From positions 1 to 45,960 of the forward strand of contig JAMPDQ010000012.1 in NCBI GenBank assembly GCA_023665575.1: a stretch of 45,960 nucleotides of DNA, given 5' to 3'. The position numbers and the translations under genes are program-made. Positions 24,865 through 44,927 of this stretch are shown here, piece after piece. Position 1 is the first letter of the stretch, and every line of letters starts with the position of its first letter. The notes below the pieces were generated by a model. The model ran no database searches and was not told the DNA's origin. It saw only the letters and a program-made list of their open reading frames with translations. Source of the DNA: Candidatus Amulumruptor caecigallinarius (lineage in GTDB: Bacteria; Bacteroidota; Bacteroidia; Bacteroidales; Muribaculaceae).

Positions 24865-25977
24865 TTATTCCGATTCGGAAAATTCCATCAAATATGCCTT
24901 GATGAAATCATCAATTTCTCCATCCATCACGCCATTTACATCCGACGTCTGATAGTTTGTGCGATGGTCTTTCACACGGCGGTCGTCAAACACGTAGCTG
25001 CGAATCTGCGAGCCCCACTCTATCTTTTTCTTTCCGGCTTCCACCTTTGCCTGCTCCTCCATTCGATGCTGCAATTCTTTCTCATACAGTATGGATTTGA
25101 GCTGGCGCATCGCGTTCTCCTTATTCTTGGGTTGGTCGCGCGTTTCGGTGTTTTCAATCAGAATCTCCTCCTCTTCTCCGGTGTAGGGGTCCTTAAACTG
25201 ATAGCGCAAGCGCACACCCGATTCCACTTTGTTTACATTCTGGCCGCCGGCTCCACCGGATCGGAAAGTGTCCCACGACACTCTTGCGGTTTCCACTTGA
25301 ATATCGATGGTGTCGTCAACCAGCGGAGTGACAAACACGGATGCGAACGAAGTCATGCGTTTCCCCTGTGCGTTGTATGGGCTCACTCTCACAAGCCGGT
25401 GCACCCCGTTTTCGCTTTTCAGGAATCCGTATGCATAATCACCTTCGATGTTTATGGTGACAGATTTTATGCCGGCTTCATCTCCATCGAGCAGCTGTGC
25501 GATAGAAGTCTTGTAGCCGTGTCGCTCTGCATAGCGCAGATAGAGCCTCATCAGCATCGAGGCCCAGTCCTGGCTCTCGGTGCCGCCTGCTCCGGAATTG
25601 ATTTTCAGCACAACTCCGAGTTTGTCTTCTTCGCGTCGCAGCATATTGCGCAATTCAAGATTCTCGACATCCTTCACTAGAGTGGAATATTGTGTTTCAA
25701 TATCCTCCTCGGTCACGAGTCCTTCCTTTATAAAATCCATTGCAAGCTCGAGCTCGCCGAGCTGCTTCTCTATGTTGGTGTAGGAATCAATCCAGAAATG
25801 AATTCCTTTAATTTTGCGCATCTGTGCCTCCGCCTTCTCCCGGTCGTCCCAAAAGTCGGCCACATGTGTGCGCAACTCCTCCTCTTCCACCTCAATCTTC
25901 TTTGAGTCAATGTCAAGATATCTTTTGAGGTCGGCAATACGCGTTTCTATGCCTTTGAGTTGTTCGGCTGTTATCAT
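24865..25977 (-). CDS. prfB: Peptide chain release factor 2, no frameshift site
   Basis: 370 residues. The GGQ motif that enters the peptidyl-transferase centre is at 244-246. The stop-codon recognition tripeptide, SPF in E. coli RF2, reads SPY here (199-201, in RLVRVSPYNAQGKRMTSFAS). RF2 reads UGA and UAA. The front part is in one frame: at Tyr20-Leu21-Asp22 the codons are TAT CTT GAC, whereas in many bacteria the sequence is CTT TGA C, which needs +1 frameshifting for autoregulation. The leader between the -7 box and ATG is almost only an octamer repeat. It is a single-gene transcript ended by the terminator at 24815-24854. Confidence 0.97.
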   Translation of the reverse strand: MITAEQLKGIETRIADLKRYLDIDSKKIEVEEEELRTHVADFWDDREKAEAQMRKIKGIHFWIDSYTNIEKQLGELELAMDFIKEGLVTEEDIETQYSTLVKDVENLELRNMLRREEDKLGVVLKINSGAGGTESQDWASMLMRLYLRYAERHGYKTSIAQLLDGDEAGIKSVTINIEGDYAYGFLKSENGVHRLVRVSPYNAQGKRMTSFASVFVTPLVDDTIDIQVETARVSWDTFRSGGAGGQNVNKVESGVRLRYQFKDPYTGEEEEILIENTETRDQPKNKENAMRQLKSILYEKELQHRMEEQAKVEAGKKKIEWGSQIRSYVFDDRRVKDHRTNYQTSDVNGVMDGEIDDFIKAYLMEFSESE

Positions 25978-26076: not shown

Positions 26077-27906
26077 CTATGCGAGCGGATAGCTGTCGGA
26101 ATACATTTTTTCTATCTTGTCAGCATAATTGCGCGCCACAACAGGGCGTCTCACTTTCATTGTGTTGGTGACTTCTCCATTCATTATTGAAAAATGGTTG
26201 GGAAGCAATGTGATGCGCTTTATCTTCTCGAAGTCGGCAATGTCGCGCTGATATTCGTTGATATGATCCATTATAAATTTTATCGTCACCGGGTTGTCCA
26301 TCAGGGCATCTGTGTCGGAAGCATCCACATTGTTGTTGTCTGCCCATTTGCGAAGTTGCGAAAGGTTGGGCACAACCAATGCCGACACGAATTTCCGCCG
26401 GTCGCCAATCACAGCCACTTCATCGATATATTTGCATTCGGCGAGCCGCGCCTCCATCATTTGAGGCGCTATATATTTTCCGTTGGATGTTTTGAACAGG
26501 TCTTTCACGCGTTCGGTAAGCACCAGTGCGCCCGAAGGAGTGAAATGACCGGCATCGCCGGTGCGGAAATAGCCGTCGTCGGTAAAGGCTTTTGCGTTAG
26601 CTTCCGGATTGTTGTAGTAGCCGGGGGTCACCGTAGGCCCTTTCACAAGAATTTCACCATTGGTGTCAATCTTCACTTTGAGCCCCGGCAATGGAATGCC
26701 CACGGTACCGATTTCATATCCTATTTCCGGGAAGCAGGACACGGTGGCGGTGGTTTCGCTGAGTCCGTAGCCTATTATTATATCGATGCCGACAGAGCGG
26801 AAGAATTCGCAGATGCTGTCGCTCAATGGAGCGCCGGCGGTTGGAAAGAAATTGGGATCGGGGATGCCGATTGCATTTTTCAGCTTGCTGAACACTCTCT
26901 TGTTCCAGAATTCATATTCTTTCTCAAGTAGCCAGGGCACATTCTTGCCGAGACGGCGGTAAAACAGATTCCGCTTTTTTCCCACATGGATGGCGTGATT
27001 CACCATCATGCGCGACAACGGCGGCATGGCTGCAATCTTTTCGCGCACTCCGGCATATACCTTTTCCCAGAAGCGAGGCACTGCACACATCAGGTTTGGA
27101 TGCACATCATGTATCGTGTCGGCAATCAGTCTCGGGTCATAGTTCACGGCAATGGTAATGCCGCGGTTTATGCAGAAATAACACCATGCTTTCTCCAATA
27201 TGTGCGACATCGGCAGAAACGACATGGAGATGTCATCGTTGTTGATGCCGTGAAGCATCTTGAGATGTGCCTCGATTGCATAGTCATAGTTGGCGTGTGA
27301 AATCACCACACCCTTGGGCTCACCGGTGGTGCCGGAGGTGTAGATAAGGGTGGCTGTGTCATCGGGCAGACCTCTTTCGGAGCGTGACTTCACAATCTCC
27401 CCGATTGAGCTGTCGGCTTCCATGCCCAGTCTTATAAAATCATCCCAAAAGATTGTTACGGTGTCATCATCAAAAAGCCTGATTCCATCGTTTTTGAACA
27501 CAATGATTTTTTTTATCCCGGGATTCTTTTTCCAATGATTGTAGGCAAGCGGATACTGGTGTTTGTCGCCTATGAAAACAACTGTTGCCCCACCGTTTTC
27601 AACAATGTAGTCAAACTGTTGCTGCACACTGCTTGCGTATATCGGAATCACCGCGATGCGGTTGCGAAAGGCTCCGAACTCTGTGATCAGAATTTGCGGG
27701 GTGTTGGGCGAACAAATTGCTATTGTGTCTTTTTCCGGAAGGCCGAGGGTGGCGAGCGCTTTGGCGGCCACATCTGTCTGCACTGCGAATTCCTTCCATG
27801 ATGTGGAGAGCCATTCGCCATCTTTGCGCCAGCAGAATCGGTAAGCTTCGCGGTCGCCTGAATTCCGGGCATTCTTTTCTATAATATTTACCAGTCTGTT
27901 TCCCAT
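26077..27906 (-). CDS. Long-chain acyl-CoA (or sterol-acid-CoA) ligase
   Basis: 609 residues, ANL superfamily. The AMP-binding P-loop is TLIYTSGTTGEPKGV (about 186-200); later come GYGLSETTATVS, the hinge and adenylate block YFRTGDAGHF and the C-terminal lysine region ISNGK-like FKTSNGKYIAP. It activates a carboxylic acid as acyl-AMP and then acyl-CoA. Close relatives in Bacteroidales are called long-chain fatty acid CoA ligases (FadD/FAA1 type). Here it is the last gene behind SDR, OYE and steroid 5-alpha-reductase genes on the same strand, with 94 bp to the SDR, so bile-acid or steroid-acid activation should be considered. An element-like sequence in the gap (27954-27974) may separate it from them. 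Confidence 0.88.
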   Translation of the reverse strand: MGNRLVNIIEKNARNSGDREAYRFCWRKDGEWLSTSWKEFAVQTDVAAKALATLGLPEKDTIAICSPNTPQILITEFGAFRNRIAVIPIYASSVQQQFDYIVENGGATVVFIGDKHQYPLAYNHWKKNPGIKKIIVFKNDGIRLFDDDTVTIFWDDFIRLGMEADSSIGEIVKSRSERGLPDDTATLIYTSGTTGEPKGVVISHANYDYAIEAHLKMLHGINNDDISMSFLPMSHILEKAWCYFCINRGITIAVNYDPRLIADTIHDVHPNLMCAVPRFWEKVYAGVREKIAAMPPLSRMMVNHAIHVGKKRNLFYRRLGKNVPWLLEKEYEFWNKRVFSKLKNAIGIPDPNFFPTAGAPLSDSICEFFRSVGIDIIIGYGLSETTATVSCFPEIGYEIGTVGIPLPGLKVKIDTNGEILVKGPTVTPGYYNNPEANAKAFTDDGYFRTGDAGHFTPSGALVLTERVKDLFKTSNGKYIAPQMMEARLAECKYIDEVAVIGDRRKFVSALVVPNLSQLRKWADNNNVDASDTDALMDNPVTIKFIMDHINEYQRDIADFEKIKRITLLPNHFSIMNGEVTNTMKVRRPVVARNYADKIEKMYSDSYPLA

Positions 27907-27953
27907 CTCAGTCTTTATGCATGTAGCACAATGTTTTTCAGATTCACAGAGTT

Positions 27954-27974
27954 AAATTTTTTATGGAGCCTTAA
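27954..27974 (-). repeat. Short variant of the dispersed element
   Basis: AAATTTTTTATGGAGCCTTA followed by A. It keeps the TTTTTATG and CC-TTAA ends but lacks the middle of the loop. It lies in the 94-bp gap between the SDR and acyl-CoA ligase genes. Confidence 0.35.
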
Positions 27975-28000
27975 TCTGTTCGTATACTTAATAACAATTG

Positions 28001-28798
28001 TCATCGTGTAATTCCCTTGTCGAGCATTCTGTGTTTTATCATCATCCTGACGGATGTGGGGGCTATTCCCACGATTGCAATGGCAATGCGGTTGATAAAT
28101 CCGTTAATATATTGCATTTTCCCATTCAGAAGATGTTTGATTGCCTTGCGGGTGAATTTTTCAGGTGTCTGCACAGCTCCTATTGCAACAGCAATCTTCA
28201 TCAGCTTGTCTGATATTCCGAAAAGGTTTGTGGCTATGCCTCCCGGACATGCCGCCATGACATGCACACCGTAATCGCGCATCTCATAATGCAATGCGCG
28301 CGTGAACACCCTTATGTATGCCTTTGTGGCCGAATACATAGCAATTCCCGGCATTGGTGTCCAGCATGACAGCGACGACATGTTGAGGATATAGCCTCCT
28401 CCCTGATGCTTGAATCTTGCCGCAAACGCCTTGGAAAGTTCTGTCACCGAGCGCACATGCAAATCTATGAAGCATTCAATCTTGCGGTCGGGGGTGTCAA
28501 GAAGATTGCTGAAAGAAAAAATTCCGGCGTTGTTAATCAGAATCGATGGCTTCACCGCCACCATGTCGGCAAGCCGCGTGATTTCATCAACAGCGTTCCG
28601 GTTGGTCAGGTCGCATACGAGAGGTGAGGCCTCAACGCCATATTCCGAGGTGATGTTGCGTGCACATTCATATAGCTCTCGCTCCTGGTTGCTCACCATA
28701 ATCAGGTTGTAGCCCAGGTCGGCGAGGGTTTTGCAGAAGCAGAGTCCTATGCCGCTGCTTGCACCGGTGACAATGGCGCATCTGCGCTCTTTTTCCAT
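28001..28798 (-). CDS. Short-chain dehydrogenase/reductase, candidate hydroxysteroid dehydrogenase
   Basis: 265 residues, classical SDR. The cofactor loop TGASSGIG is at 11-18, NNAG at 89-92, and the catalytic Ser142, Tyr155 and Lys159 (YSATK) have the right spacing. The overall style resembles the HSD17B3/12-like group of 3-ketoacyl or hydroxysteroid reductases. The ATG at 28798 is chosen because the OYE gene stops at 28800: the junction reads TAA-A-ATG, so the two are translated together. With an OYE reductase and a steroid 5-alpha-reductase upstream, reduction of a 3-keto steroid or bile acid (3-beta-HSDH activity) is the leading idea. A fatty-acid 3-ketoreductase is the alternative. Stereospecificity cannot be read by eye. 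Confidence 0.85.
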   Translation of the reverse strand: MEKERRCAIVTGASSGIGLCFCKTLADLGYNLIMVSNQERELYECARNITSEYGVEASPLVCDLTNRNAVDEITRLADMVAVKPSILINNAGIFSFSNLLDTPDRKIECFIDLHVRSVTELSKAFAARFKHQGGGYILNMSSLSCWTPMPGIAMYSATKAYIRVFTRALHYEMRDYGVHVMAACPGGIATNLFGISDKLMKIAVAIGAVQTPEKFTRKAIKHLLNGKMQYINGFINRIAIAIVGIAPTSVRMMIKHRMLDKGITR

Positions 28799-28799
28799 T

Positions 28800-30032
28800 T
28801 TATTTTCTGACACTGTTTCTGAGCTTGATTTCATTTATTTCCTTCAGTATTTTCGGAGGCAGGTCTTTGCAGTGTTTGTGACAAGCCATTTCCAGCGAAT
28901 ACATTTTTGCAATGCAATAGTTTACATGGTCGCATCCGCAGCGATGGTTGCCGGAGCTTTCGCGCATGCGGTTCACAAAGTCGGGTTCATTGAGCAGTGC
29001 GCGTCCCATCTGCACAAACTGGAAATCGTTGGCAAGCACCTTTTCCGCCCCGTCCCTGTCAATAACGCCGCCTACATAAATCAGAGGGAGTTTCAGCTCA
29101 CTGCGGAATTTCTTTGCATCTTCAAGAAAATACAGCGGTTCGAACGGCACTTTCGGTATCATATATTTCCCGGCCATGCGCACGCAATATTTCATCCACC
29201 ATGGTTTCATGTAATGAGTCAGTGAATAAACCGGCATTTCCCCCCTCATCACATACATCGGGGCTTTGCTGACAAATCCTCCCGACAGCACAATGGCGTG
29301 TGCTCCGGCGCGCTCTATTTCTCGGGCCACCGTCAGACAGTCGTCAATTTCAAGGCCTCCTTTGAAGCCGTCGCGCATATTGGTTTTGACAATCACTCCC
29401 ATGTCGCCGCCGGCTGCGCGGAGCACCTCGTCAAGACACATGCGCATAAATGTCATGCGGTTTTGCAGCGGGCCGCCGAATTCATCGTGGCGATGGTTGG
29501 TGTAGGGAGAAAGAAATTGCGAGATGAGATATCCGTGGCCGGCATGCACCTCCACGCAGTCGAATCCGGCATCACGGGCGGTGCGCACCGCATCGCCGAA
29601 ATATCCGGCTATTTTCTTTAATTCATCTTTTTTGAGTCCGCGCACGAAGGTGGGTGAATACATGTTGAATCCGGTGGAGGCTCCCACCGGTATGCCGCCG
29701 GCAGTGGAAGGGTGTGTCATATTGCCGCAATGCCCAATCTGTATTGAGGCTTTTGCTCCATGGGCGTGCACACCATCGGTGATCTCCCGCAGAGGAGACA
29801 CAATCTCCTTGCGAAGCCATAATTGTGATTTGAATGACAATGCGGAACGGCACACTCCGGCGTAAGCCAGTGTTGTCATGCCAACTCCGCCGCGAGCCAC
29901 TGAAATGTGATAATTGCGGAGCATCTCCGTGGGATTATTGTTGTGTCCCATACCCTCGAAGGCCGCTGATCTAATAGTGCGGTTGCGGAGTTTCACGGGT
30001 CCGATTTCTCCCGGTGTGAACAGTTTTGACAT
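28800..30032 (-). CDS. Old Yellow Enzyme-type flavin oxidoreductase (candidate steroid 5-beta-reductase)
   Basis: 410 residues. The FMN barrel covers about 1-355 with canonical motifs: QIGHCGNM (98-105), the substrate pair region VHAGHGYLISQFLSPYTNHR (162-181), DEFGG (183-187) and YVGGVIDRD near 319. A Cys-rich tail (Cys365, 367, 373, 384, 388) resembles the iron-sulfur site of 2,4-dienoyl-CoA reductase and BaiCD types, but the NAD-binding half of those 640-residue enzymes is missing, so this is the short form. OYE enzymes reduce activated C=C bonds; relatives in bile-acid clusters of gut Bacteroidales reduce the delta-4 bond to the 5-beta product. It is coupled to the SDR (1 bp). Confidence 0.88.
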   Translation of the reverse strand: MSKLFTPGEIGPVKLRNRTIRSAAFEGMGHNNNPTEMLRNYHISVARGGVGMTTLAYAGVCRSALSFKSQLWLRKEIVSPLREITDGVHAHGAKASIQIGHCGNMTHPSTAGGIPVGASTGFNMYSPTFVRGLKKDELKKIAGYFGDAVRTARDAGFDCVEVHAGHGYLISQFLSPYTNHRHDEFGGPLQNRMTFMRMCLDEVLRAAGGDMGVIVKTNMRDGFKGGLEIDDCLTVAREIERAGAHAIVLSGGFVSKAPMYVMRGEMPVYSLTHYMKPWWMKYCVRMAGKYMIPKVPFEPLYFLEDAKKFRSELKLPLIYVGGVIDRDGAEKVLANDFQFVQMGRALLNEPDFVNRMRESSGNHRCGCDHVNYCIAKMYSLEMACHKHCKDLPPKILKEINEIKLRNSVRK

Positions 30033-30091
30033 TAAGATTGGAATCTAATAGATTGATTTATAGTCTTTTTTTATAAAAAGCTTAAACCGTT

Positions 30092-30859
30092 TCAGTATAT
30101 GAATGGAATTATATATTTTCTGTTAAGCGATTTATATTCGTTGCCGAATTCACTGACATAACGGCTGTGGAGCTTTTTGGCTCTTGGAGCGAGGTTGGCA
30201 AATGTCCACATCAGGAATGCGAGCGAGCCGATATTCCACGACAACACTGCATATCCCAGCCATTCAAGCGTTTCTCCAAAATAGTTGGCGGATGTGACAT
30301 AGTTATACATTCCGCCGCGCGGAATATAGTGGCGTGTGTCGCCCGGCATTCTCAAATGCCTGATTATATTATCGGAATGAAGGTTTATCCCCATGCCGGC
30401 AAAAAATATCACCGTGCCGAGGATAAAAAGCGGACTCATGAGCCATGAAGATGAATAGTATGCGCTTCCCACATGGAAAAGCCATCCTCCTATCATATAC
30501 ACGTTTATGATGTTGAAGAGTGCGCCGCTTGCAATTATGGCCAGCGGCATGCGGCTCTTTCCCCGCATGGCCAGCGGAAAGATGAACGATCGCTGGAAAT
30601 AGTGCAGTTCAAAAAGAGAGGCCATCACAATTAGAGCCGGATTGCCCCGGTGTTCGCTCAGCAGCCACATCAGAAGCATGCCGACAAAAGCCGGAGTCTC
30701 CATCATAATCCAGCCGATACGGTTGCTCACTGACGGCCCCCATTTCTTGTTATACATCATGCCGTAGCCGGCTGTGATGCGCTGCAGCGCGAAAAACACC
30801 ACTACAGACAATACCATCATTGCTCCGACTACGGCATAATATATTATGGGATTAAACAT
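30092..30859 (-). CDS. Steroid 5-alpha-reductase (SRD5A) homologue
   Basis: 255 residues, about seven membrane helices, the usual length for SRD5A1/2. The C-terminal half is strikingly like the vertebrate enzyme: NLHSDNIIRHLRMPGD (159-174), then YIPRGGMYNYVTSANYFGE (178-196), then an RAKKLHSRY region and a final KYIIPFIY. Glu54 and Tyr87 (in ELHYFQRSF) fall where human SRD5A2 has its catalytic Glu57 and Tyr91; Asn192 and Glu196 fall at NADPH-binding positions. The enzyme should reduce a delta-4-3-keto steroid or bile acid to the 5-alpha (allo) form. Its ATG is 3 bp after the pgi stop, and the OYE gene follows after 59 bp. The family call is strong; the substrate is inferred. Confidence 0.92.
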   Translation of the reverse strand: MFNPIIYYAVVGAMMVLSVVVFFALQRITAGYGMMYNKKWGPSVSNRIGWIMMETPAFVGMLLMWLLSEHRGNPALIVMASLFELHYFQRSFIFPLAMRGKSRMPLAIIASGALFNIINVYMIGGWLFHVGSAYYSSSWLMSPLFILGTVIFFAGMGINLHSDNIIRHLRMPGDTRHYIPRGGMYNYVTSANYFGETLEWLGYAVLSWNIGSLAFLMWTFANLAPRAKKLHSRYVSEFGNEYKSLNRKYIIPFIY

Positions 30860-30862
30860 GCT

Positions 30863-32167
30863 TTAATATCCCGGTTTCTTCAGCAGCTTAAACATGTTTC
30901 TCTTGTAGGCTTCCACGCCGGGCTGGTTGAAGGGATTCACACCCAACATGTATCCGCTGATTCCGCAGGCTTTTTCAAAGAAATAAATCAGACCGCCAAG
31001 GGTGTATTCGTCAAGCTTCTCAATTTCAATATGGAGGTTGGGCACGCCACCATCTACATGTGCCATCTGAGTGCCCAGCTCCGCCATCTTGTTGACCTCG
31101 TCGATTCTCTTGCCTGCAAGATAATTCAGACCGTCAAGGTTGGCCTCGTCAGAGGGCACGCGCAGCTCCACTGCCGGCTTGGCGATGGATATCACAGTCT
31201 CAAAGATTGTGCGTTCACCCTCCTGGATCCATTGTCCCATCGAGTGGAGGTCGGTGGTGAAATCAACAGATGCGGGGAAGATTCCCTTGCCATCCTTGCC
31301 CTCGCTCTCGCCATAAAGCTGTTTCCACCATTCTGACACGTAATGGAGTTTGGGATCAAAATTCACCAGAATCTCGATTTTTTTACCATCCTGATAGAGG
31401 GCGTTTCTCATTCTGGCGTATGTCACGGCGATATTGTCGGAATTTTCGCGCAGAGTCTCCTTTTCCATGTCGGCAGCCCCGGCAATAAGTTTGTTTATGT
31501 CGTGTCCGGCCACAGCTATGGGAAGAAGGCCCACCGGTGTGAGCACAGAGAAGCGGCCTCCCACATTGTCGGGAATCACATATGTTTCGTAACCCTCCTG
31601 ATTGGCCAGTGTGCGGAGTGCCCCTTTGTTGGCATCGGTTATGGCAACAATAAGATTTTTTGCAGTCTCTTTGCCGGCCTGCTTTTCAAGCAGCTCCTTG
31701 AGGATTCTGAATGCAATTGCAGGCTCGGTGGTTGTGCCTGATTTGGAAATGACTATGATGCCGAATTTTTTGCCGGTCAGCAGTTTCTGCAATTCGGCGG
31801 TATATTCTTCGCCAATGTTTTGTCCGGCGTAGAGCACTTTAGGCTCCTTCGGATTCGGGGCATAATAATATTCGAAATTATCGGCAAGGGCGGTGTTCAC
31901 GGCTTTTGCTCCGAGGTAGCTTCCGCCAATGCCTATGCAGACAACATATTCGCAGTTTTCGCGCAAGCGATTTGCTGTGGCGTTGATTCTGTCGAGCAGT
32001 TCTGCGGATGTTTCCGACGGGAGTTTCACCCAGCCGAGGAAGTCATTGCCGGCTCCGGTGCCCTCTTCAAGTGTAGTGATTGCCTTTACAGCGGCATCCT
32101 TGTTTGCGTTGAATTTCTCTTCCGCAAAAAAGATCGCCTTGTCAATGTTTAATTTAATGGATTTCAT
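30863..32167 (-). CDS. pgi: Glucose-6-phosphate isomerase
   Basis: 434 residues, the short bacterial form. Visible motifs are [15 protein letters not shown] (about 76-90), [14 protein letters not shown] (about 139-152), [15 protein letters not shown] (about 201-215) and the C-terminal [14 protein letters not shown]. It interconverts glucose-6-phosphate and fructose-6-phosphate in the cytosol. It follows gpsA by 98 bp and lysS-gpsA before that, a gene order I recall from Bacteroidales. Its stop lies 3 bp before the steroid 5-alpha-reductase ATG, so that gene rides on a housekeeping transcript. A hairpin copy of the dispersed element lies 18 bp upstream of the start codon. Confidence 0.97.
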
Positions 32168-35641: not shown

Positions 35642-37357
35642 ATGAAACAAATTGCAAAGTATGCCCTTGGTGCGGCAGCACTCATGATGGGCGCCTGCTC
35701 GTCAGACGAACCGAGCAACTCCAACAATGGCACTGAAAGCAAAGGCGGCGATTTCTACGCCACCCTGACACTCAGTCTTCCCACCGGCGGCGGCACGAGG
35801 GCCGAAAACTCCGATGTGGCGGGCGAGGAATATGGCCAGGACAATGAGAACTACGTGGGCAAAGTGCTCATCGTGCTTGCCGAGAAGGATGAGCAGGGCC
35901 GTTTCCATACCGTTACCTACGCCGAAAGCGATGCCCGCCCCGGCACAGCCGTTAGCGGCACAAACCAGATCTCATACACTCTCAGCTTCGATTCAAAGGC
36001 TCTCAAGGATGATCCCCTTTCGGGCGGCTCCACCATCCCCGGCAAGCAGAATCTCTATGTGTTTGCATATTGCAACCCCACCAACCAGATTCTCACAACA
36101 TTCAGCGGAAATGAAGACTTCCCCCTCGGAGGCACCATGGGATCGATCTCAAGCGGTGACAACGCCGACATCTGGACTCCCAATTCATTCCTGATGACCA
36201 ATTCAGAGATAAGCGAGCCCGTGAACATGCCCAGCCGCGATGAACTCGTGAACAACCACAACACCCCCCAGACAGCCGTGAATCTCGGCACTGTCAAGGT
36301 GGTGCGTGCGGCTGCCCGTTTCGACTTCCAGACCACCAACGACAATCGTTATGACATAAAGGATATCGACGGCAAAACATCTGTCGGAACCGTGGAGCTC
36401 ACTCAGATGGCCATGTTCAACATTGCCAAAAATTACTTCCATCTTCCCCGCACAAGCAGCACATGGGACTGGACAACATGCAACAGAACCGGAGCTCTCA
36501 ACTATGAACTCTGCGGAAATCTTGAAGGCTTCGTGATGAGTCCCAACGAGAATAATTTCAAATCGAAGTCAAACCTCGATGCTGCCACGCTCAACGGCAA
36601 ATATTTCTGCAGCATCCTCAACAACAACCTCACCGGAACTTCCGGCACCGACGGCAAGGCTCTGAAATGGACCTCAATCAAGCCCTTCGACTGGAACAAC
36701 CGCACCGACGACAACCACAACACCTGGAACGGCGCCGACGGCACCAACTACAAGATTTGGCGCTACACCACCGAGAACACCATTCCCGGCAGCACCGGCA
36801 ACCAGAAAGTCGGCATCACCACCGGCGTTGTCTTCAAGGGTGAGTTCACTCCGGCCAACCGCGAAGTGTGGAACGGCAATGTGATCTACGTCTACAACAA
36901 CACCGTATACGGCGATTTCAACGCCCTCAAGGCTTATGTCGACAAGAACCCCTCAAGCGTGGTGGCTCAGGCATTCAATGACCTTGACGCATTCAAGTCG
37001 GAAAGCGTTTCCGACCTCAGCAAGAACCTGCTCAAGGGAATCAAGGCCGCCGACTGCAACGGCTTCACCGCCTACGAGCCCGAAGCAACCGGAATGGGTG
37101 CGAACGCCAAATATGTGATGTATTATTTCTACTACAACCGCCACCACAACAACGGCAACAACAACCTTATGGGACCCAACGAGTTCGGCGTGGTTCGCAA
37201 CAACGTCTACAAGCTCAGCGTCACCAAGGTCGGCGCGCTCGGCAGCCCGACAAGCCCCGATGACCCCGACACCCCCGACGAGGAGGAAAGCGCTTACTTC
37301 ACAGTGAACTGCCTCGTGATGCCCTGGACAGTGCGCGTGAACAACATCGAGTTCTAA
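35642..37357 (+). CDS. Mfa1/FimA-type major pilin
   Basis: 571 residues. Lipoprotein signal peptide with lipobox MGAC (Cys19). The N-terminal strand region ends at Arg53 in GGGTRAENS, the place where type V pilins are cut by a trypsin/gingipain-like protease so that the A1 strand is lost. The middle (KVVRAAARFDFQT near 221) is the usual pilin domain linker. The C-terminus TVNCLVMPWTVRVNNIEF is the presumed donor strand that fills the groove of the next subunit. Longer than FimA (about 340) and close to Mfa1 (about 560). Codons ending in C are dominant, as in highly expressed genes. It is the first gene of a seven-gene run. Confidence 0.85.
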   Translation: MKQIAKYALGAAALMMGACSSDEPSNSNNGTESKGGDFYATLTLSLPTGGGTRAENSDVAGEEYGQDNENYVGKVLIVLAEKDEQGRFHTVTYAESDARPGTAVSGTNQISYTLSFDSKALKDDPLSGGSTIPGKQNLYVFAYCNPTNQILTTFSGNEDFPLGGTMGSISSGDNADIWTPNSFLMTNSEISEPVNMPSRDELVNNHNTPQTAVNLGTVKVVRAAARFDFQTTNDNRYDIKDIDGKTSVGTVELTQMAMFNIAKNYFHLPRTSSTWDWTTCNRTGALNYELCGNLEGFVMSPNENNFKSKSNLDAATLNGKYFCSILNNNLTGTSGTDGKALKWTSIKPFDWNNRTDDNHNTWNGADGTNYKIWRYTTENTIPGSTGNQKVGITTGVVFKGEFTPANREVWNGNVIYVYNNTVYGDFNALKAYVDKNPSSVVAQAFNDLDAFKSESVSDLSKNLLKGIKAADCNGFTAYEPEATGMGANAKYVMYYFYYNRHHNNGNNNLMGPNEFGVVRNNVYKLSVTKVGALGSPTSPDDPDTPDEEESAYFTVNCLVMPWTVRVNNIEF

Positions 37358-37415
37358 GCAACCCCCATACATTCGCGGCGACCGCTGATGGCCGCGGCGA
37401 CAACACAGAAGTCAA

Positions 37416-37433
37416 GGGAGGGGTGACCCTCCC
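37416..37433 (+). promoter_or_regulatory. GC-rich intercistronic hairpin
   Basis: GGGAGGG (37416-37422), loop GTGA, CCCTCCC (37427-37433), perfect and all but one pair G-C. No T tract follows, so it is not a normal terminator. A second GC-rich inverted segment lies just upstream (about 37376-37399). Placed between the stalk and anchor genes it could protect the stalk mRNA or cut down read-through, giving more stalk than anchor. Confidence 0.5.
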
Positions 37434-37478
37434 CTGGCTGCCAACTAACCGAATACGTAAGTAACAATCGACAGGAAG

Positions 37479-38573
37479 ATGACAATCCATAATATGAAAT
37501 CAGTGAGCGGAAGAATCGGCAAATCGGCCCGCGGGCTGATGATGCTCTGCATGGCAATCGCCGCAATGCTTTCATTATCCTCATGCGACAAGGGCATGGG
37601 CGTTTACGACGACCTCGCCCCCTGTCCGAGCGGAATGAAGATGCGCTTTGTGTTTGACTACAACCTGGAGTTTGCCAACTCTTTCCACAACCAGGTGGAC
37701 TGCCTCTCGGTGTATGTCTTCGACAAGGCCGGAAATCTTGTGGAGAGCCGCACGGAAACCACCGAAGTGCTTGCCGACGAGAACTGGCGCATGACCTTCG
37801 ACCTCCCGGCCGCCGAATATCAGGTGGTGGCCTACGGCGGGCTTGAATGCGAGCTGGCTTCTTTCGCACAAACGGTGAAAAGGGAGAATGTGGCCCGCAT
37901 AGAGGATCTGCGGGTGCTGATCAACGAGGAGCACATCGGCGACGAGGCCAAGCGTCCGGCGCGCCCGCTCCACGACCTTTACCACGGATATCTCGCTTTC
38001 GAGGTGACCAACGGTCTTGACTACAACGAGTGCACGGTGAAAATGATGCGCGACACCAACCACATCCGCATCGTGCTCCAGCACATCGACAACTCCCCGG
38101 TCGACGACAGGGATTTCCGTTTCGAGATTGTTGACGACAACGTGTTGTTGAACCATATGAACGATGTGGTGCCCCGCGGCACCGTCACCTACACCCCCTG
38201 GACTACCGGCACCGCCAACACCGGCGTGAGCCGCGGCGAGCCCGTGCAGGTGGCCTTTGCCGAGCTCAGCACCTCGCGCCTCATGCGCGATTCGAAATTC
38301 GTATGGACCGACCCCGATGGCAAGAGCCAGAACGGCCCCAGGCTGCGGATCACATCCGTCAAAAACGGCCGAATGGTGTGCGACCTCCCGCTCAACAACT
38401 ATCTCGTGCTGATGAAGAGCGAATATCTCGCGCAGATGGGAGAGCAGGAATTCCTCGACCGTGCCAACAGATACAACATGGTGTTCTTCCTCGACAAAGA
38501 CAATTTCTGGGTGCAGATGAACATCATCGTAAACGATTGGACCGTCCGCATCGACAACATCAAGTTCCAATAA
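37479..38573 (+). CDS. FimB/Mfa2 family pilus anchor
   Basis: 364 residues. Lipobox LSSC with Cys36, then the family opening CDKGMGVYDDLAPCPSG, and strands around MRFVFDYNLEF and DCLSVYVFDKAGNLVESR. FimB and Mfa2 stay lipid-anchored in the outer membrane, start the fibre and limit its length. In line with this it lacks the Thr-Arg-Ala/Gly cleavage site seen at residues 53-55 of the other three subunits. Its C-terminus IIVNDWTVRIDNIKFQ mirrors the last strand of the major pilin (WTVR, then NI, then F). A second Met at codon 6 is an alternative start. It is 121 bp behind the stalk gene. Confidence 0.87.
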   Translation: MTIHNMKSVSGRIGKSARGLMMLCMAIAAMLSLSSCDKGMGVYDDLAPCPSGMKMRFVFDYNLEFANSFHNQVDCLSVYVFDKAGNLVESRTETTEVLADENWRMTFDLPAAEYQVVAYGGLECELASFAQTVKRENVARIEDLRVLINEEHIGDEAKRPARPLHDLYHGYLAFEVTNGLDYNECTVKMMRDTNHIRIVLQHIDNSPVDDRDFRFEIVDDNVLLNHMNDVVPRGTVTYTPWTTGTANTGVSRGEPVQVAFAELSTSRLMRDSKFVWTDPDGKSQNGPRLRITSVKNGRMVCDLPLNNYLVLMKSEYLAQMGEQEFLDRANRYNMVFFLDKDNFWVQMNIIVNDWTVRIDNIKFQ

Positions 38574-38589
38574 TCCTACGACCATTACA

Positions 38590-39666
38590 TTGAAAACATT
38601 AACATACATACTAATGCTTGTGGCGGGAGCGCTTCTCACTGCCTGCTCCGGAGAGGAGCGGCAGCCCGACGCGCCCCCCGCGACGGACGATGTGTGTGAG
38701 CTGGTGTTTACTCTGAATACCGGCACACCCTCCGCGCAATCGCAGCAGACGCGTGCCGACGGCGTGTGGGGAGACGATCCGTCGCCCGAGCCCGGAATCG
38801 ACATCGAGAATGTGCTCGACAATGTGTCGCTCTATCTTGTGACGCCTGGCGGCAACTGTCCGCTGACACTCGTGGGGCAGGACATCTCCGAAGGAAAATA
38901 TGAATACAAGGTGAAGGTGGCCCTGGGCGTGGTCAACGCCGTTCCCGCCGGCATGAACCAGTATCGCATCAGCGGTCGGCTTGTGGCCGTTGTCAACCAT
39001 ACCGCCGACTTCGAATTCTCCAATCCCTTCAACACCGATGCGATGGATATCGCCGACATACAGAAGAAGCTGTATATCCCCATGTGGGGTGTGAAGACCC
39101 TTTCGGGGGTGCTGGTTGCCTCCAACACAACCATGCATATCGGCGAGGTGAAGCTGCTCCGCGCCCTTCCGAAAATCACCGTGAAAATCGATGATGACCT
39201 GAAGAACGAATACAAAATCACCGCAATCCGGGAAGACCGCCAGGTGTTCCGCAGATACGCTCTCTGCACGCCTAAAGGTGCGGAGACGGCCGCATCCACC
39301 GAGGCGCTGCTGAGGGAAGGCTGCTTCAATCCGGTTGCCGAGGTCGCCACAAGTCCTTTGAAATTCAAGGGCGTGGGCACATCGGAGACATGGTGCTATC
39401 TTCCCGAAACGCCGCTGGCAACCACCGGCGGTGTGCCCGAGTCGCTGACAGTGACCCTGGAGCGCAGGGACGGCACGGCGGCCCCCTTCACCGGAAAGGT
39501 GTATCTCTGTGACTATGAGGGGGGAAATCCGAAGTTCGACACGGCCTTCCCCGGCCTTGTGCGCAACCACGACTATCAGTACCGCATTTCGCTCAGGGAG
39601 CTGCAGTTTGTCGTGTCGGCCAGGCAATGGATCTACGGCGGCAAAGTGCATCTCGACATGGAATAA
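38590..39666 (+). CDS. Minor pilus subunit (Mfa3/Mfa4-like position), TTG start
   Basis: 358 residues. It begins with TTG: no ATG is available before the signal sequence MKTLTYILMLVAGALLTAC, whose lipobox LTAC gives Cys19. A later in-frame ATG at codon 9 would halve the signal's front. The mature protein has Arg55 in QQTRADG, the probable protease site, and a pilin-like region LLRALPKITVKIDD near 190. The C-terminus FVVSARQWIYGGKVHLDME may be the donor strand. It is 16 bp after the anchor gene. By gene order it should be an adaptor between stalk and tip; the sequence alone only shows a fimbrillin-like protein. The TTG start would lower its output. Confidence 0.7.
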   Translation: MKTLTYILMLVAGALLTACSGEERQPDAPPATDDVCELVFTLNTGTPSAQSQQTRADGVWGDDPSPEPGIDIENVLDNVSLYLVTPGGNCPLTLVGQDISEGKYEYKVKVALGVVNAVPAGMNQYRISGRLVAVVNHTADFEFSNPFNTDAMDIADIQKKLYIPMWGVKTLSGVLVASNTTMHIGEVKLLRALPKITVKIDDDLKNEYKITAIREDRQVFRRYALCTPKGAETAASTEALLREGCFNPVAEVATSPLKFKGVGTSETWCYLPETPLATTGGVPESLTVTLERRDGTAAPFTGKVYLCDYEGGNPKFDTAFPGLVRNHDYQYRISLRELQFVVSARQWIYGGKVHLDME

Positions 39667-39700
39667 CCACCGACAGAAAAAACAGCAACAAACCAATCTG

Positions 39701-42700
39701 ATGAAATCAAACAGACTGACATATATATCCGTTTCACTGCTAGCGGGGATGCTCCTCACGGGGTGTCGCGATGATTCTTTCCTTGAGGATTCGAATCCCG
39801 TTGGCGACCCCAACGCCGTGACCTTCGAGGCCGGTGTGGATCTCGGCATGCTCACAACGCGCGGCGGCGACGGCGAAAAGAAATTATATGATCCCCTTGA
39901 ACTAAGCGACGAAAAGGGCACGGAGACGCTCTATCTCCACACATACGATTCGGAGGTGATCGGGGAGTCGGCCCGCGATCTCCGGTATGCAGCCGGCCGG
40001 CCGGAAACCCGCGCCGGGCAGGTGCAGACAGTCGACGACCTTATCAAATACAACACCGATTTCAAGGTGCACGCCCAATATCAAGATACGGCTGAAGAAT
40101 ATATCGAATGGACAAATGGAAAGCAGGCGGGCACCGGGGGGCAAATCTGGGCCACTGAGCGCACGCGCTACTGGCCCGGCGAGAAAATGTTGAGCTTTCA
40201 TGCCGTTTCTCCGGCTGCTGAATTTGCCGCCCTGCAGAAGCAGAGCATAGCCAATAATGAATATCGCTTCTCATACACCGCAAAAAAGGGCGCGTCGGCC
40301 AATCGCGATGCCGAAACCCAGAAGGATCTGATGTTTGCAACATCCGTTTGCAACAAGCAGGGGAGTGTTAACGGACGCGCCCCTCTGAAGTTTCATCATG
40401 CGCTGTCGGCAATCAAGTTCGCGGTGCGTGATGTGCTCAACGGTGAGATTGTCAACATAAAGATAAAGGGTGTCTACGGTTCGGGCGACTGTGTGTTCAC
40501 CGCCGACAACAGCGGCGAAAACGGCGCCTTTGCCTGGAGCAACCAGGCCGGTGTCACCGACTATTCCCAGAATTTCAACTATGTTGTCAACGAGCGAGGA
40601 GAGTATGTGAACCCTGGCGATGAGAGCAAGGATATCGTGCTCAACGCGAAGATGCCCGAGAAAACATTCATGCTGATTCCGCAGGCCATCCCCGAAGGCG
40701 CCGAGATTGAAGTGACGATGAAGCGTACGGGGCTTGTGTCGGGTTCCGGCGCACAGGCCACAATCACAGTGAAGGCCCGCATCGACCAGAACTCGCTGAA
40801 GGAGTGGCTTCCCGGTCACGAATATATCTACACGATATCCACCAGCAAGGACAACTGGGTGTATGTGCTCGAGGCGTTCGGCAACCACAATTCGGCCAAC
40901 GGACGCCACGACAAGGACATCTCCAATTTCCGCAATGCCGACCAGATATATGTGTATTCCCCGGTTGCCGAGGCCTACGACACATATGAAGCAAAAGCCT
41001 ATTTTCAGGTGAGCAGCTACCGCTACCGTGCCAACGATGCCAACTATCGCGAGGCGTGTCCCTGGGTGGCATCGCATGGCGATGCAAAGCAGTATCGCCC
41101 GGTGGGCACTTCCACGCAATGGGGACAATATGTCGGCAAGGAGCGCGACCTGAAGGCCGCCGACTGGATCACTGATCCGAAAAAACTCCGGGGAGCCGGC
41201 AATGCCGACAAGTCTTTTGAAAAGCATAATATCACCATGGCCGAGTCGCATCTGATGACCGACTGGGCCGGCGACACCTGGATGCAGGACAACGCACCCT
41301 ATTCCGGCAACTCGAAGTCAAAACCCTGGGACCTCGCCACCGCCGGCGGCGCGCTGAGCCAGAACACAGCCAACACATATGTGATCGACCGCGAGGGATG
41401 GTACAGCTTTCCGCTTGTATATGGAAATGCAAAGAAAAACGGCGGAAACAATAAGAAGGCCTACGAGGGTAATGTGTTTGTGGATCATGCCGGAAATTCA
41501 ATTGTCAAGCCGGCGATTGATGGTGTGGTGGATGCCGCCATCGTGTGGTCGGACGTGTTCAATGCAATCAGCGATGTGCAGGTTAAAGACAACAAGGTGT
41601 TGTTCAAGGCCAACAAGGGCAACCTTCAGCAGGGAAATGTTGTGATAGCCGTTTATGACAAGGCCAACAACAATAACGGGTCTAACAGCGGAACCGTGTT
41701 GTGGAGCTGGCATATATGGATCAACGAGCATTGGCTCGACCCGGAAACCGGCCAGCCGAACGCCTTCAACTCAAGCGGCTTCAAAACCGTGGAGTATGCC
41801 AAGGGGAGCGGGTGGCGTCAGCGCGGCGACCTGAAAATCAACAACAAGCATGTTGATGGAAGTCTCAAATACTTTATATCGCCATATAATCTGGGATGGT
41901 GCGACCCCAAGAATGTGGATTATCTCCGCCGCCCCGGCACAATGAAGTTTGTGCAGTATATGCCCGGCACCGCCGTTAACGCGCTTGAGAAGGAGGGCAG
42001 GGTGACCGGCAAGACCGCAAGCCTGCCGATTCTGCAGGAGGGGGAGCGCGTGTCATACAAATTCGGAAACAACACCTACTATCAGTGGGGACGCAAGGAT
42101 CCGATGGTGGGGTTTGTGGATCATTCGAGCAATGTGAAACGCAACTTCGGCCCAATGCGGTATAAGGTTTCATCCAAAGCGGATGGCAGGGCCATCAAGG
42201 AGGGTATCCTTAACCCGCACATACTCTTTGCCAGCGATGACAAGAATGATGATGACTGGTTGAAGACTTCGCGAACGATGTTGTGGGACAATGACGATAA
42301 CACTGGTCAGAACAATAAGAAAGTTGTTAAGACTGTATATGATCCCTCTCCTCCGGGATACGTGGTTCCCCCGGCTTATTGTCTGCGCTTCATCGGCACG
42401 GATGCCAATGACAGTTACGAAAACAGCAGCAGCGACCAGAAGAACCTTTCCAAATTCAACGGCAAGAAGGGTAGTAATAATTTCACATTCATCGCGTGTG
42501 TTGTGGATAAGGCTAACCAGACCAAGGAAAATTCCGTATGGCTCACAAGCACCGGTCACCGCTGGTATACCGACAAATACGGCAAACTCCCCGACGGTTC
42601 GACATGGAAGGCCGGCGATAACTTCAATCCCAAGATTGTGTATCTGGGTTCCTCCACGCCTGTTAAGGATAAAATAAGCAATGCCTACGGTATCGCGCTT

Positions 42701-42799
42701 GGTTATGACGAAACCTATGACAAATATGTGATCACATCATTTTTCTTCGGACGAAAGGCTATGGCCCGCCCCATCAGGGCAATCCGCGAATTGGAATAA
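39701..42799 (+). CDS. Large fimbrillin-family tip protein / adhesin candidate
   Basis: 1032 residues. Lipobox LLTGC with Cys22, then Arg54 in LTTRGGDG, a likely processing site. The first 420 residues follow the fimbrillin/Mfa_like pattern, with PLKFHHALSAIKFAVRD (about 230-246) and a closing LKEWLPGHEYIYTIS. The remaining 600 residues look like an all-beta module rich in Asn, Gly, Trp and Tyr and end in ARPIRAIRELE, an ending I associate with surface fimbrillin-like proteins of Bacteroides. Size and position fit a tip adhesin of the Mfa5 kind, but no von Willebrand A motif (DxSxS) is visible, so the adhesive part is a different type. The ATG at 39701 is 34 bp after the previous stop. Ligand unknown. 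Confidence 0.7.
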   Translation: MKSNRLTYISVSLLAGMLLTGCRDDSFLEDSNPVGDPNAVTFEAGVDLGMLTTRGGDGEKKLYDPLELSDEKGTETLYLHTYDSEVIGESARDLRYAAGRPETRAGQVQTVDDLIKYNTDFKVHAQYQDTAEEYIEWTNGKQAGTGGQIWATERTRYWPGEKMLSFHAVSPAAEFAALQKQSIANNEYRFSYTAKKGASANRDAETQKDLMFATSVCNKQGSVNGRAPLKFHHALSAIKFAVRDVLNGEIVNIKIKGVYGSGDCVFTADNSGENGAFAWSNQAGVTDYSQNFNYVVNERGEYVNPGDESKDIVLNAKMPEKTFMLIPQAIPEGAEIEVTMKRTGLVSGSGAQATITVKARIDQNSLKEWLPGHEYIYTISTSKDNWVYVLEAFGNHNSANGRHDKDISNFRNADQIYVYSPVAEAYDTYEAKAYFQVSSYRYRANDANYREACPWVASHGDAKQYRPVGTSTQWGQYVGKERDLKAADWITDPKKLRGAGNADKSFEKHNITMAESHLMTDWAGDTWMQDNAPYSGNSKSKPWDLATAGGALSQNTANTYVIDREGWYSFPLVYGNAKKNGGNNKKAYEGNVFVDHAGNSIVKPAIDGVVDAAIVWSDVFNAISDVQVKDNKVLFKANKGNLQQGNVVIAVYDKANNNNGSNSGTVLWSWHIWINEHWLDPETGQPNAFNSSGFKTVEYAKGSGWRQRGDLKINNKHVDGSLKYFISPYNLGWCDPKNVDYLRRPGTMKFVQYMPGTAVNALEKEGRVTGKTASLPILQEGERVSYKFGNNTYYQWGRKDPMVGFVDHSSNVKRNFGPMRYKVSSKADGRAIKEGILNPHILFASDDKNDDDWLKTSRTMLWDNDDNTGQNNKKVVKTVYDPSPPGYVVPPAYCLRFIGTDANDSYENSSSDQKNLSKFNGKKGSNNFTFIACVVDKANQTKENSVWLTSTGHRWYTDKYGKLPDGSTWKAGDNFNPKIVYLGSSTPVKDKISNAYGIALGYDETYDKYVITSFFFGRKAMARPIRAIRELE

Positions 42800-42831
42800 C
42801 CCTCGTCTCTCTAACCTGTGACCTTCAAACT

Positions 42832-42857
42832 TTTTTCAAGCTTTTTGGGTTGAAAAA
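42832..42857 (+). promoter_or_regulatory. AT-rich hairpin between tip and accessory genes
   Basis: TTTTTCAA (42832-42839) and TTGAAAAA (42850-42857) form a perfect 8-bp stem with a 10-nt loop, in the 71-bp gap. It may attenuate or process the message between the structural and accessory genes. Confidence 0.4.
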
Positions 42858-42870
42858 TTAAAAATATATT

Positions 42871-43467
42871 ATGAGTCTGAAAAGGATTACAATAACACTG
42901 GCGGCTGCGGCGGCGCTGCTTTTCCCCGCCGCCCGCAGCTTTGCAGAAACAAAGGTTGGCGTGAAAACCAATCTTGTCAGCGATGTCGCGCTGAGTCCCA
43001 ACCTCGGCGCCGAGGTGGGCCTCGCCCCCAAATGGAGCATGGAGCTTGTGGGGCAGCTGAATCTGTGGGAGATAAGCGGCCACAGCTGGAAACATGCCTG
43101 TCTGTTGCTCGAACCACGCTACTGGTTTTGCGAGCGTTTCGCCGGCCATTTTGTCGGACTGCACGTATTGGGCGGAACCTATAACTTCGGCAACCTCAAC
43201 ATCCCTTATGATTTCCTGGGATCAAACCTGAAGGAGCTGAAAGACAAACGCTATCAGGGTTGGGCCTATGGAGCCGGAGTGTCTTACGGATATGCATGGC
43301 CGCTTGCCAAGCACTGGAACATCGAGGCGGAACTCGGCATAGGATGGCTGCATACCGAATTCGACAGCTACCCCTGCACTGTTTGTGGCACTGCCATTGA
43401 GAAAGATAAACCCCACGACTATTTCGGCATCACAAAAGTTGCCGTGAATCTTGTTTACTTGTTTTAA
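42871..43467 (+). CDS. DUF3575 outer-membrane accessory protein
   Basis: 198 residues. A Sec signal peptide ends near SFAET (about 26). The rest alternates like a small beta-barrel and ends in an aromatic residue (VNLVYLF), as outer-membrane barrels do. The DUF3575 pattern is visible: KTNLVSDVALSPNLGAEVG and EPRYWF. It has four cysteines, Cys77, Cys87 and a CTVC pair at 169 and 172. DUF3575 genes accompany Fim/Mfa-type pilus operons in Bacteroidales; the function is unknown, and a role in display or assembly is assumed. It is 5 bp ahead of the DUF3868 gene. Confidence 0.85.
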   Translation: MSLKRITITLAAAAALLFPAARSFAETKVGVKTNLVSDVALSPNLGAEVGLAPKWSMELVGQLNLWEISGHSWKHACLLLEPRYWFCERFAGHFVGLHVLGGTYNFGNLNIPYDFLGSNLKELKDKRYQGWAYGAGVSYGYAWPLAKHWNIEAELGIGWLHTEFDSYPCTVCGTAIEKDKPHDYFGITKVAVNLVYLF

Positions 43468-43472
43468 TAATC

Positions 43473-44927
43473 ATGGATATAAAGAAATATCTTTTTACAG
43501 CGGTTGCCGTCATAACCTTGGGTTTCGGTGCATTTGCATGGGATAGTCCGCGTTACGGCATCTCCGGTCTGGAAGTGAAGGTGGAACATGGATTGGTGAA
43601 TCTCAACATGCAGCTTAATCCTAAGAATTTTCATGTGAAATATAATCAGAATGTGGAAATAACACCGGTGCTGAAATCGGTTGAGGGGAATGATTCCGTA
43701 GTTTTCCCCTCTGTCATAGTGGCCGGCAGAAATTCATATTACACGATTCAGCGTGAAGAAGCATATAAGGATTTCCTTCTGCGCTCGGGCAGCGGAAAGA
43801 TGCTCAATTATAAACAGTCATGCGAATGGCGCAACTGGATGGAGCGAAGCCGTCTCGAACTGCAGGAAAAGGTGGCCGGATGTTGTGGAAAGCTCAAAGG
43901 AGATACTGAGGAAAAGCCGGTGGCAAGTCTCGACTTCACTCCGGTGGAGTTCGCTCCCTCTTTCCATTATGCCGCCGCCGCACCCGAAATGGTGAAGGAA
44001 CGCAAAATCGAGGGAAAGGCCTATGTAAATTTCCCTGTGAACCGCACTGAGATTTATCCCGATTATTTGAACAATCCGGTGGAGTTGCGCAAAATCACAA
44101 ATTCAATTGACAGTGTGCGTATGAATCCGGATGCGACAGTGAAACAAATCACACTCACCGGTTTCGCATCGCCCGAAGGCCCTTATCTGAACAATGTTCG
44201 TTTGGCGAAAGGCCGCACGGAAGCTGTCATGAATTATGTGAAGAGTCAATATTCTTTCTCCGGCAGTGTGTTCAAAACCAATTCCGTGCCCGAAGACTGG
44301 GAGGGATTGCGAGATTCTGTTGCTCATTCCATCCTTCCCGACAGGGCTGAAATTCTCAGCTTTATCGACAACGGCAATGTGCCCGTTGAGAGGCGCAACG
44401 ATGAGTTGCGGGCAAAATTCCCCGTGAGTTATGCGTTTCTTTTGAAGCATGTCTATCCATGGTTGCGACACACCAATTATCGCATTGATTACGATATTCG
44501 CTCATATACCGATATTAATGAGATTCGCCGCGTGCTGAGCGAGCGCCCGCAAAATCTGAGTCTGAATGAGTTCTTCCTTGCGGCCGAGAGCTATCCTAAA
44601 GGGAGTGCGGAATATGACAAGGTGTTTGAGACGGCAGTGCTTTATTATCCCGATAGCGAGGTGGCCAATTTGAATGCGGCCAATTCGGCGATGAACGAGG
44701 GCGATCTGAAGCGTGCCCGCGTGCTGTTGAACCGCGTGAGCGGCACCCCCTCCGGCAAATATGCAATGGCCATCCTCGATGCTCTTGAGGGAAATTATGA
44801 TGCGGCGCAAGCCGGTTTTGAGGAGGCCGTGAAAAATGGTATTCCTGAGGCTCCGGCGGCTCTCGAGGAATTGAATAATGTTCGTGAAAAGAAAAATGGC
44901 ATTGTTTATGCGCCGGTTGCAGAATAA
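43473..44927 (+). CDS. DUF3868/OmpA-like pilus accessory protein with TPR-like tail
   Basis: 484 residues. Signal peptide 1-22 (FGAFAWDSP). DUF3868 covers about 23-150 (LEVKVEHGLVNLNMQLNP). An OmpA-like segment lies near 200-270, with TLTGFASPEGPYLNNVRLAKGRTEAV, which in OmpA domains binds peptidoglycan. The last 110 residues have helical TPR-like periodicity (VANLNAANSAMNEGDLKRARVLL). Cysteines are Cys117 and a CC pair at 137-138. It probably ties the pilus base to the wall. The TlpA-like gene starts 20 bp inside its 3' end. Codon use returns to the level of the rest of the window, unlike the structural genes. Confidence 0.85.
   Translation: MDIKKYLFTAVAVITLGFGAFAWDSPRYGISGLEVKVEHGLVNLNMQLNPKNFHVKYNQNVEITPVLKSVEGNDSVVFPSVIVAGRNSYYTIQREEAYKDFLLRSGSGKMLNYKQSCEWRNWMERSRLELQEKVAGCCGKLKGDTEEKPVASLDFTPVEFAPSFHYAAAAPEMVKERKIEGKAYVNFPVNRTEIYPDYLNNPVELRKITNSIDSVRMNPDATVKQITLTGFASPEGPYLNNVRLAKGRTEAVMNYVKSQYSFSGSVFKTNSVPEDWEGLRDSVAHSILPDRAEILSFIDNGNVPVERRNDELRAKFPVSYAFLLKHVYPWLRHTNYRIDYDIRSYTDINEIRRVLSERPQNLSLNEFFLAAESYPKGSAEYDKVFETAVLYYPDSEVANLNAANSAMNEGDLKRARVLLNRVSGTPSGKYAMAILDALEGNYDAAQAGFEEAVKNGIPEAPAALEELNNVREKKNGIVYAPVAE

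Follow-up and report, generated by a model that had tools for sequence, protein, structure and literature searches.

Bacteroidales are described as carrying a gene cluster for a 5-alpha-reductase (5AR), a 5-beta-reductase (5BR), and a 3-beta-hydroxysteroid dehydrogenase (3-beta-HSDH), for which Sato 2021 and Li 2021 are reportedly the primary papers. We analyzed a stretch of 45,960 nucleotides from the Muribaculaceae member Candidatus Amulumruptor caecigallinarius (contig JAMPDQ010000012.1; hereafter the window), in which minus-strand open reading frames (ORFs) at 26077..30859 encode an SRD5A-type 5AR, a flavoenzyme of the old yellow enzyme (OYE) type, a short-chain dehydrogenase/reductase (SDR), and an acyl-CoA ligase. 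The 5AR-OYE-SDR trio is the already published Bacteroidales gene set, of which the window is a further carrier; the ligase is most likely an unrelated neighbor; and the dehydrogenase place of the set is filled by two different SDR families, a pattern that is worth follow-up.

In one review, Bacteroidota strains are said to convert 3-oxo-delta4-lithocholic acid (lithocholic acid, LCA), and disruption of the 5AR gene in Parabacteroides merdae leads to loss of alloLCA derivatives. A route to isoallo acids through 5BR, 5AR, and 3-beta-HSDH is given in PMC9645264, PMC10672800, PMC12697870, and PMC11271093. The first two lay it out as 3-oxoLCA to 3-oxo-delta4-LCA to 3-oxoalloLCA to isoalloLCA and have 5BR, an OYE protein, begin it in Bacteroidota by oxidizing 3-oxoLCA or deoxycholic acid (DCA); the DCA sentence of PMC10672800 reverses the two reductases, which were apparently swapped. 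PMC11647740 describes Parabacteroides distasonis with 5-beta-reductase and 3-alpha/3-beta-HSDH activity, making 3-oxoLCA, isoLCA, and LCA, the first of these from 3-oxo-delta4-LCA. Lists of carriers appear in PMC12692668 and PMC12789469, the former also attributing a reductively acting 5-beta-reductase to H. hathewayi and Lachnospiraceae. IsoalloLCA and related acids are reported, in reviews including PMC11271093, to influence regulatory T cells and to be inhibitory toward Gram-positive pathogens, which makes it useful to identify the gut lineages that have the genes.

Conservation of the 5AR-OYE-SDR trio

The four genes follow one another on the minus strand in the order 5AR, OYE, SDR, and ligase, with gaps of 59, 1, and 94 bp, an arrangement that an earlier note on this DNA had described and that the ORFs and their Pfam families bear out. 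The membrane 5AR (255 amino acids; 30092..30859) matches PF02544 Steroid_dh (1.7e-41; 142.1 bits against a cutoff of 22.6) and is the one Steroid_dh match in the window's genome. The OYE-type protein, a short form of 410 amino acids (28800..30032) that we propose as 5BR/delta-4 oxidoreductase, matches PF00724 Oxidored_FMN (7.6e-50), and the SDR (265 amino acids; 28001..28798), a proposed hydroxysteroid dehydrogenase of the family termed SDR1 below, matches adh_short (2.3e-41). The 1-bp gap holds for the SDR start codon ATG at 28798, one base past the OYE stop codon; read from its first start, the ORF spans 28001-28834 and encodes 277 amino acids.

Gene order was compared over 70 rows, comprising the window, 23 loci from a GTDB scan (L002-L024, with Flavobacteriales L025 and L026 left out), 26 more 5AR carriers from a set of 79 Muribaculaceae genomes (L027-L052), and 20 stretches taken from another 18 genomes of the order (L068-L087); records of Bacteroides fragilis, Phocaeicola massiliensis, and Alistipes are included. 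The GTDB loci came from patterns built on the window's 5AR, which biases that set to close relatives, and five more distant 5AR genomes of the order search (G112, G137, G169, G191, and G195) lie outside the survey. When adjacency is defined as OYE following 5AR on the same strand within 450 bp, OYE stands directly after 5AR in 59 of the 70 loci, the window included. Layouts were tallied by script, with the split overlapping genes of L032 and L033 fixed by eye and L003 placed in the four-gene group; the contigs of L015, L016, L034, L042, and L077 stop shortly past the last gene, so that their downstream part is unread. The commonest layout is 5AR-OYE-SDR1-SDR2, with a second SDR family, in 29 rows (27 of 68 once the duplicates are removed, L046 being L012 and L049 being L014), followed by 5AR-OYE-SDR1 (13/70), 5AR-OYE-SDR2 (9/70), 5AR-OYE with no further match (6/70), and 5AR-OYE-SDR1-ligase-prfB (2/70). 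The order is kept among relatives, and OYE and SDR1 match a gene pair of P. distasonis, which upholds the earlier identification of the trio with the known Bacteroidales set. The survey also picks out the carriers among Muribaculaceae, 5AR being present in 27 of the 79 genomes, and in 25 of the 119 genomes of the order search. Two genomes of one other genus of the order (G079 and G186; loci L079, L080, L083, and L084) have two 5AR copies each, none of them with an adjacent OYE.

Active-site residues of the 5AR

By phmmer, the window's 5AR matches the solved SRD5A structures PbSRD5A (7c83; 1.1e-51) and human SRD5A2 (7bw1; 6.2e-39), and its nearest named 5AR records, at up to 67% identity, are from Muribaculaceae metagenome-assembled genomes (MAGs). 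It was aligned with the chains of these two structures and with 44 relatives, two duplicate pairs among them, from the 51 loci L002-L052, the ORF filter having removed L013, L025, L026, L028, L032, L040, and L050. The window and every one of the 44 relatives retain the residues equivalent to human W53, E57, Y91, R94, N160, D164, R171, N193, E197, R227, and Y235. These include E57 and Y91, which we take to be the catalytic Glu and Tyr, together with what are presumably SRD5A cofactor positions. Like human SRD5A2 and PbSRD5A, the window's protein belongs to Pfam Steroid_dh and retains both catalytic residues along with most of the cofactor positions; it differs from them by Met for Gln beside the catalytic Glu, by Tyr at human R179, and by Leu at H231; across the alignment the R179 position is Tyr, and that of H231 is Leu, Ile, or Thr.

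The OYE flavoenzyme and the proposed pathway

The tail of the OYE protein carries the motif C367-x-H369-x-N-Y-C373-x10-C384-H385 (protein residues 367-385), at least 95% invariant in the 44-relative alignment, at a position where a Nocardia and a Sphingobium homologue carry CxxCxxC...C. Set beside what we take to be the Fe-S motif of the FadH/BaiCD kind, it looks like an altered Fe-S or metal site. The window's protein belongs to the OYE family, as do BaiCD and the Clostridial 5-beta-reductases described in Arp 2025, known enzymes with delta-4-3-ketosteroid substrates. An assignment as BaiCD was rejected, as the score with model NF041087 is 181.1 bits, below the curated cutoff of 825; that model spans 642 positions and is named an Fe-S flavoenzyme, whereas the window's protein matches it in part and has an altered Cys motif. 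The main text of PMC12238238 has no word starting with "bacteroid".

It is quite probable that the window holds a Muribaculaceae copy of the known 5AR-5BR-HSDH set, with the ligase standing apart, and that OYE, 5AR, and SDR jointly invert host bile acids at the A/B ring junction. The substrates and the order of steps proposed here follow from the published Bacteroidales scheme. OYE would act on a steroid or bile acid, interconverting its 5-beta 3-oxo and delta-4-3-keto forms; 5AR would convert the latter to the flat 5-alpha 3-oxo form, presumably with NADPH; and SDR would reduce the 3-keto group to a 3-hydroxy group or reoxidize it.

Several observations weigh against this reading. At the position of human Q56, where human SRD5A2 and PbSRD5A have Gln beside the catalytic Glu, the window and all 44 relatives have Met, and the window's 5AR consequently lacks the Gln of a human- or PbSRD5A-like Gln-Glu-Tyr active site; because a Bacteroidota 5AR is reported to be active, the Met is probably tolerated, in an alignment that holds no P. 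merdae sequence. The OYE protein misses the BaiCD cutoff by far. In 11 of the 70 rows 5AR has no adjacent OYE, although in L035 and L037 an OYE gene lies about 4 kb off, and 5AR is present in only 27 of 79 Muribaculaceae genomes, and its function is therefore dispensable in the family. The OYE and SDR of P. distasonis are a partial stand-in for the characterized P. merdae sequences, and the activity of the Muribaculaceae copies is predicted only. Lastly, in two members of the window's own genus the ligase is found apart from prfB, its partner gene discussed below (on another contig in G030, at 12 kb in G050).

The earlier note had proposed that delta-4-3-keto substrates are sent to either the 5-alpha or the 5-beta form, after which the 3-keto group is reduced. 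A free choice between the two forms is doubtful, as PMC9645264 and PMC10672800 place 5BR at the oxidative entry, with 5AR following, and the published scheme mostly leads from the 5-beta 3-oxo acid through delta-4 to 5-alpha. Because P. distasonis, an OYE-SDR1 carrier with no 5AR match in a 117-kb record, is reported in PMC11647740 to make 3-oxoLCA from 3-oxo-delta4-LCA, it is nevertheless a credible alternative, if somewhat the less probable one, that OYE is a true reductive 5-beta-reductase competing with 5AR, such that the cell makes either ring form. The direction of OYE may simply be redox-dependent, in which case this alternative overlaps with the ring inversion that we favor.

It seems unlikely that, instead of bile acids, the trio acts mainly on other delta-4-3-ketosteroids, such as steroid hormones or sterol products, or on another enone lipid. 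The SRD5A and OYE families are promiscuous, and two Flavobacteriales MAGs have a 5AR 37-38% identical to that of the window with no OYE match within their short contigs, both of which count toward such substrates. The reported turnover of 3-oxo-delta4-LCA by Bacteroidota and the lack of alloLCA products in the P. merdae 5AR mutant, as given in the review cited at the outset, argue instead for bile acids.

Two SDR families at the dehydrogenase position

Single-linkage clustering (38% identity and 150 bits) of the 56 SDR-like ORFs that passed the motif filter, from L002-L052 plus the window's SDR, gave two clusters: SDR1, with 31 members including that of the window, and SDR2, with 25. The window's SDR1 is about 25% identical to SDR2 over its length. 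All 31 SDR1 proteins are matched by the P. distasonis SDR (median 201 bits), as are 11 of the 25 SDR2 proteins (at most 60 bits). The Bacteroides, Phocaeicola, and Mediterranea loci L017, L019-L022, and L024 have SDR2 only, within the stretch read. There is no SDR2 in the window, where matches to SDR2 queries fall inside the SDR1 gene itself, and at 1e-20 none was found in the window's genome (G000; 93.96% complete) or in the genus members G030, G050, and G069; 6 of the 11 genomes searched have such a match. SDR2 may have been lost in the window's lineage. In a near relative (L003, 6131-6855), SDR2 is split over two overlapping frames after SDR1, through either decay or assembly error.

The HSDH of the cluster can accordingly be either of two different genes, which is new here (a literature search on the two-SDR layout was not made) and matters when products are predicted from genomes. 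The window's SDR, which adjoins the rest of the trio by 1 bp, would take the HSDH role. Because two SDR families fill that place and the window has SDR1 alone, the C3 stereochemistry of its product cannot be assigned, and the label of 3-beta SDR is unproven. It could be speculated, as a tentative idea only, that SDR1 and SDR2 are hydroxysteroid dehydrogenases differing in specificity at C3 (or another position), and that their gain and loss determine the set of bile-acid isomers released by a given Bacteroidales strain. If so, clusters with both genes could epimerize at C3, and the SDR1-only clusters of the window's genus and the SDR2-only clusters of Bacteroides/Phocaeicola would each stop at one epimer.

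Linkage of the acyl-CoA ligase

The earlier note had counted the ligase, an AMP-binding acyl-CoA synthetase of 609 amino acids (26077..27906; AMP-binding, 1.2e-64), as a fourth member of the set and had called for a survey of its linkage across genomes. That survey does not support membership: the ligase adjoins the trio in 2 of the 70 loci, the window and G069, which belong to a single genus, and it was rejected as a conserved trio member on this linkage and on a pairing with prfB that is independent of 5AR. Orthologs, defined as near full-length matches at E < 1e-150 (not counting G045, whose copy is divided between two contigs), occur in 61 of the 79 Muribaculaceae genomes, and 39 of those 61 have no 5AR match; among the 27 5AR-bearing genomes, 22 have the ligase and 5 have no full-length match. 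It lies directly upstream of prfB, with a gap of 14-245 bp, in 23 of the 61 genomes, 8 of which have no 5AR match, and broken contigs may conceal more such pairs.

In the window, prfB (24865..25977, minus strand; TIGR00020, 441.9 bits against a cutoff of 370) lies downstream of the ligase, as it does in 22 other genomes. On the other side, immediately upstream of 5AR and outside the trio, pgi (30863..32167, minus strand; NF010697, 650.1 bits against a cutoff of 443) ends 3 bp from 5AR and closes a lysS-gpsA-pgi run that the earlier note did not mention. G069 keeps the entire lysS-gpsA-pgi-5AR-OYE-SDR1-ligase-prfB run; the other two genus members, G030 and G050, each have the trio on one contig, the ligase on a second, and pgi on a third. 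We infer an ancestral ligase-prfB pair, and the simplest reading of the order of events would be that this pair was there first and the trio later ended up between it and pgi.

The best NCBIfam match of the ligase is FadD11, at 301.6 bits (cutoff 950), and it is most likely a separate, widespread acyl-CoA synthetase. That it acts as a functional fourth member, activating or trapping the remodeled bile acid as a CoA ester, is very improbable: its strand, its distance of 94 bp from the SDR gene, and the repeated order in G069 would suit such a role, but they are outweighed by its frequent occurrence without 5AR, the 5AR genomes with no full-length match to it, its far commoner place beside prfB, and its separation from the trio in G030 and G050. 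A literature search returned no paper that joins an acyl-CoA ligase with 3-oxoLCA, isoalloLCA, and Bacteroidetes. In L080, from the distant lineage with two 5AR copies, a ligase that is 31% identical and 1.2 kb from a 5AR, with an opposite-strand gene between, was taken as chance.

Other features of the window and its genome

No RNA elements or tRNAs were found across the window. Promoter and terminator scans gave consensus matches alone (23 against a shuffled mean of 15.1, and 22 against 11.6) and were set aside. A fimbria-type locus on the plus strand at 35642-44927 contains fimbrillin C-terminal and Mfa2 anchor genes, a 1,096-amino-acid ORF without a Pfam match, a DUF3575 gene, and a 484-amino-acid ORF whose DUF3868 match is below its cutoff. 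The sole choloylglycine-hydrolase-family match in the window's genome, elsewhere at L067 1396-2448 (G000:C11), has a signal-like start and scores below the cutoffs for bile salt hydrolase and penicillin V amidase.

Comparison with known systems

The OYE-SDR pair of P. distasonis (NZ_OY725754.1) is adjacent and in the same order as in the window, its OYE being 62% and its SDR1 40% identical. It differs in that no 5AR match lies within the 117-kb record, which is part of the genome, and in that the pair adjoins TolC-RND efflux genes. In that record (L088, 256-6955), TetR, TolC, and RND efflux genes come immediately before the pair, and these neighbors suggest a context of steroid or bile-acid export. 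The 5AR-OYE-SDR2 locus of Phocaeicola massiliensis (L020) is again alike in order, with a 5AR 55% and an OYE 65% identical to those of the window, but its third gene is SDR2, and the window's SDR shares 25% identity with the SDR2 that this species has in L089.

Taken as a whole, the locus is real, conserved, and largely known. Like the Bacteroidales 5AR/5BR/3-beta-HSDH cluster of P. merdae, Odoribacter, and Bacteroides, as reviews describe it, the window has an SRD5A-type 5AR, an OYE flavoprotein, and an SDR contiguous on one strand; unlike that cluster, it has a Muribaculaceae host, SDR1 without SDR2, and a position between pgi and a ligase-prfB pair.

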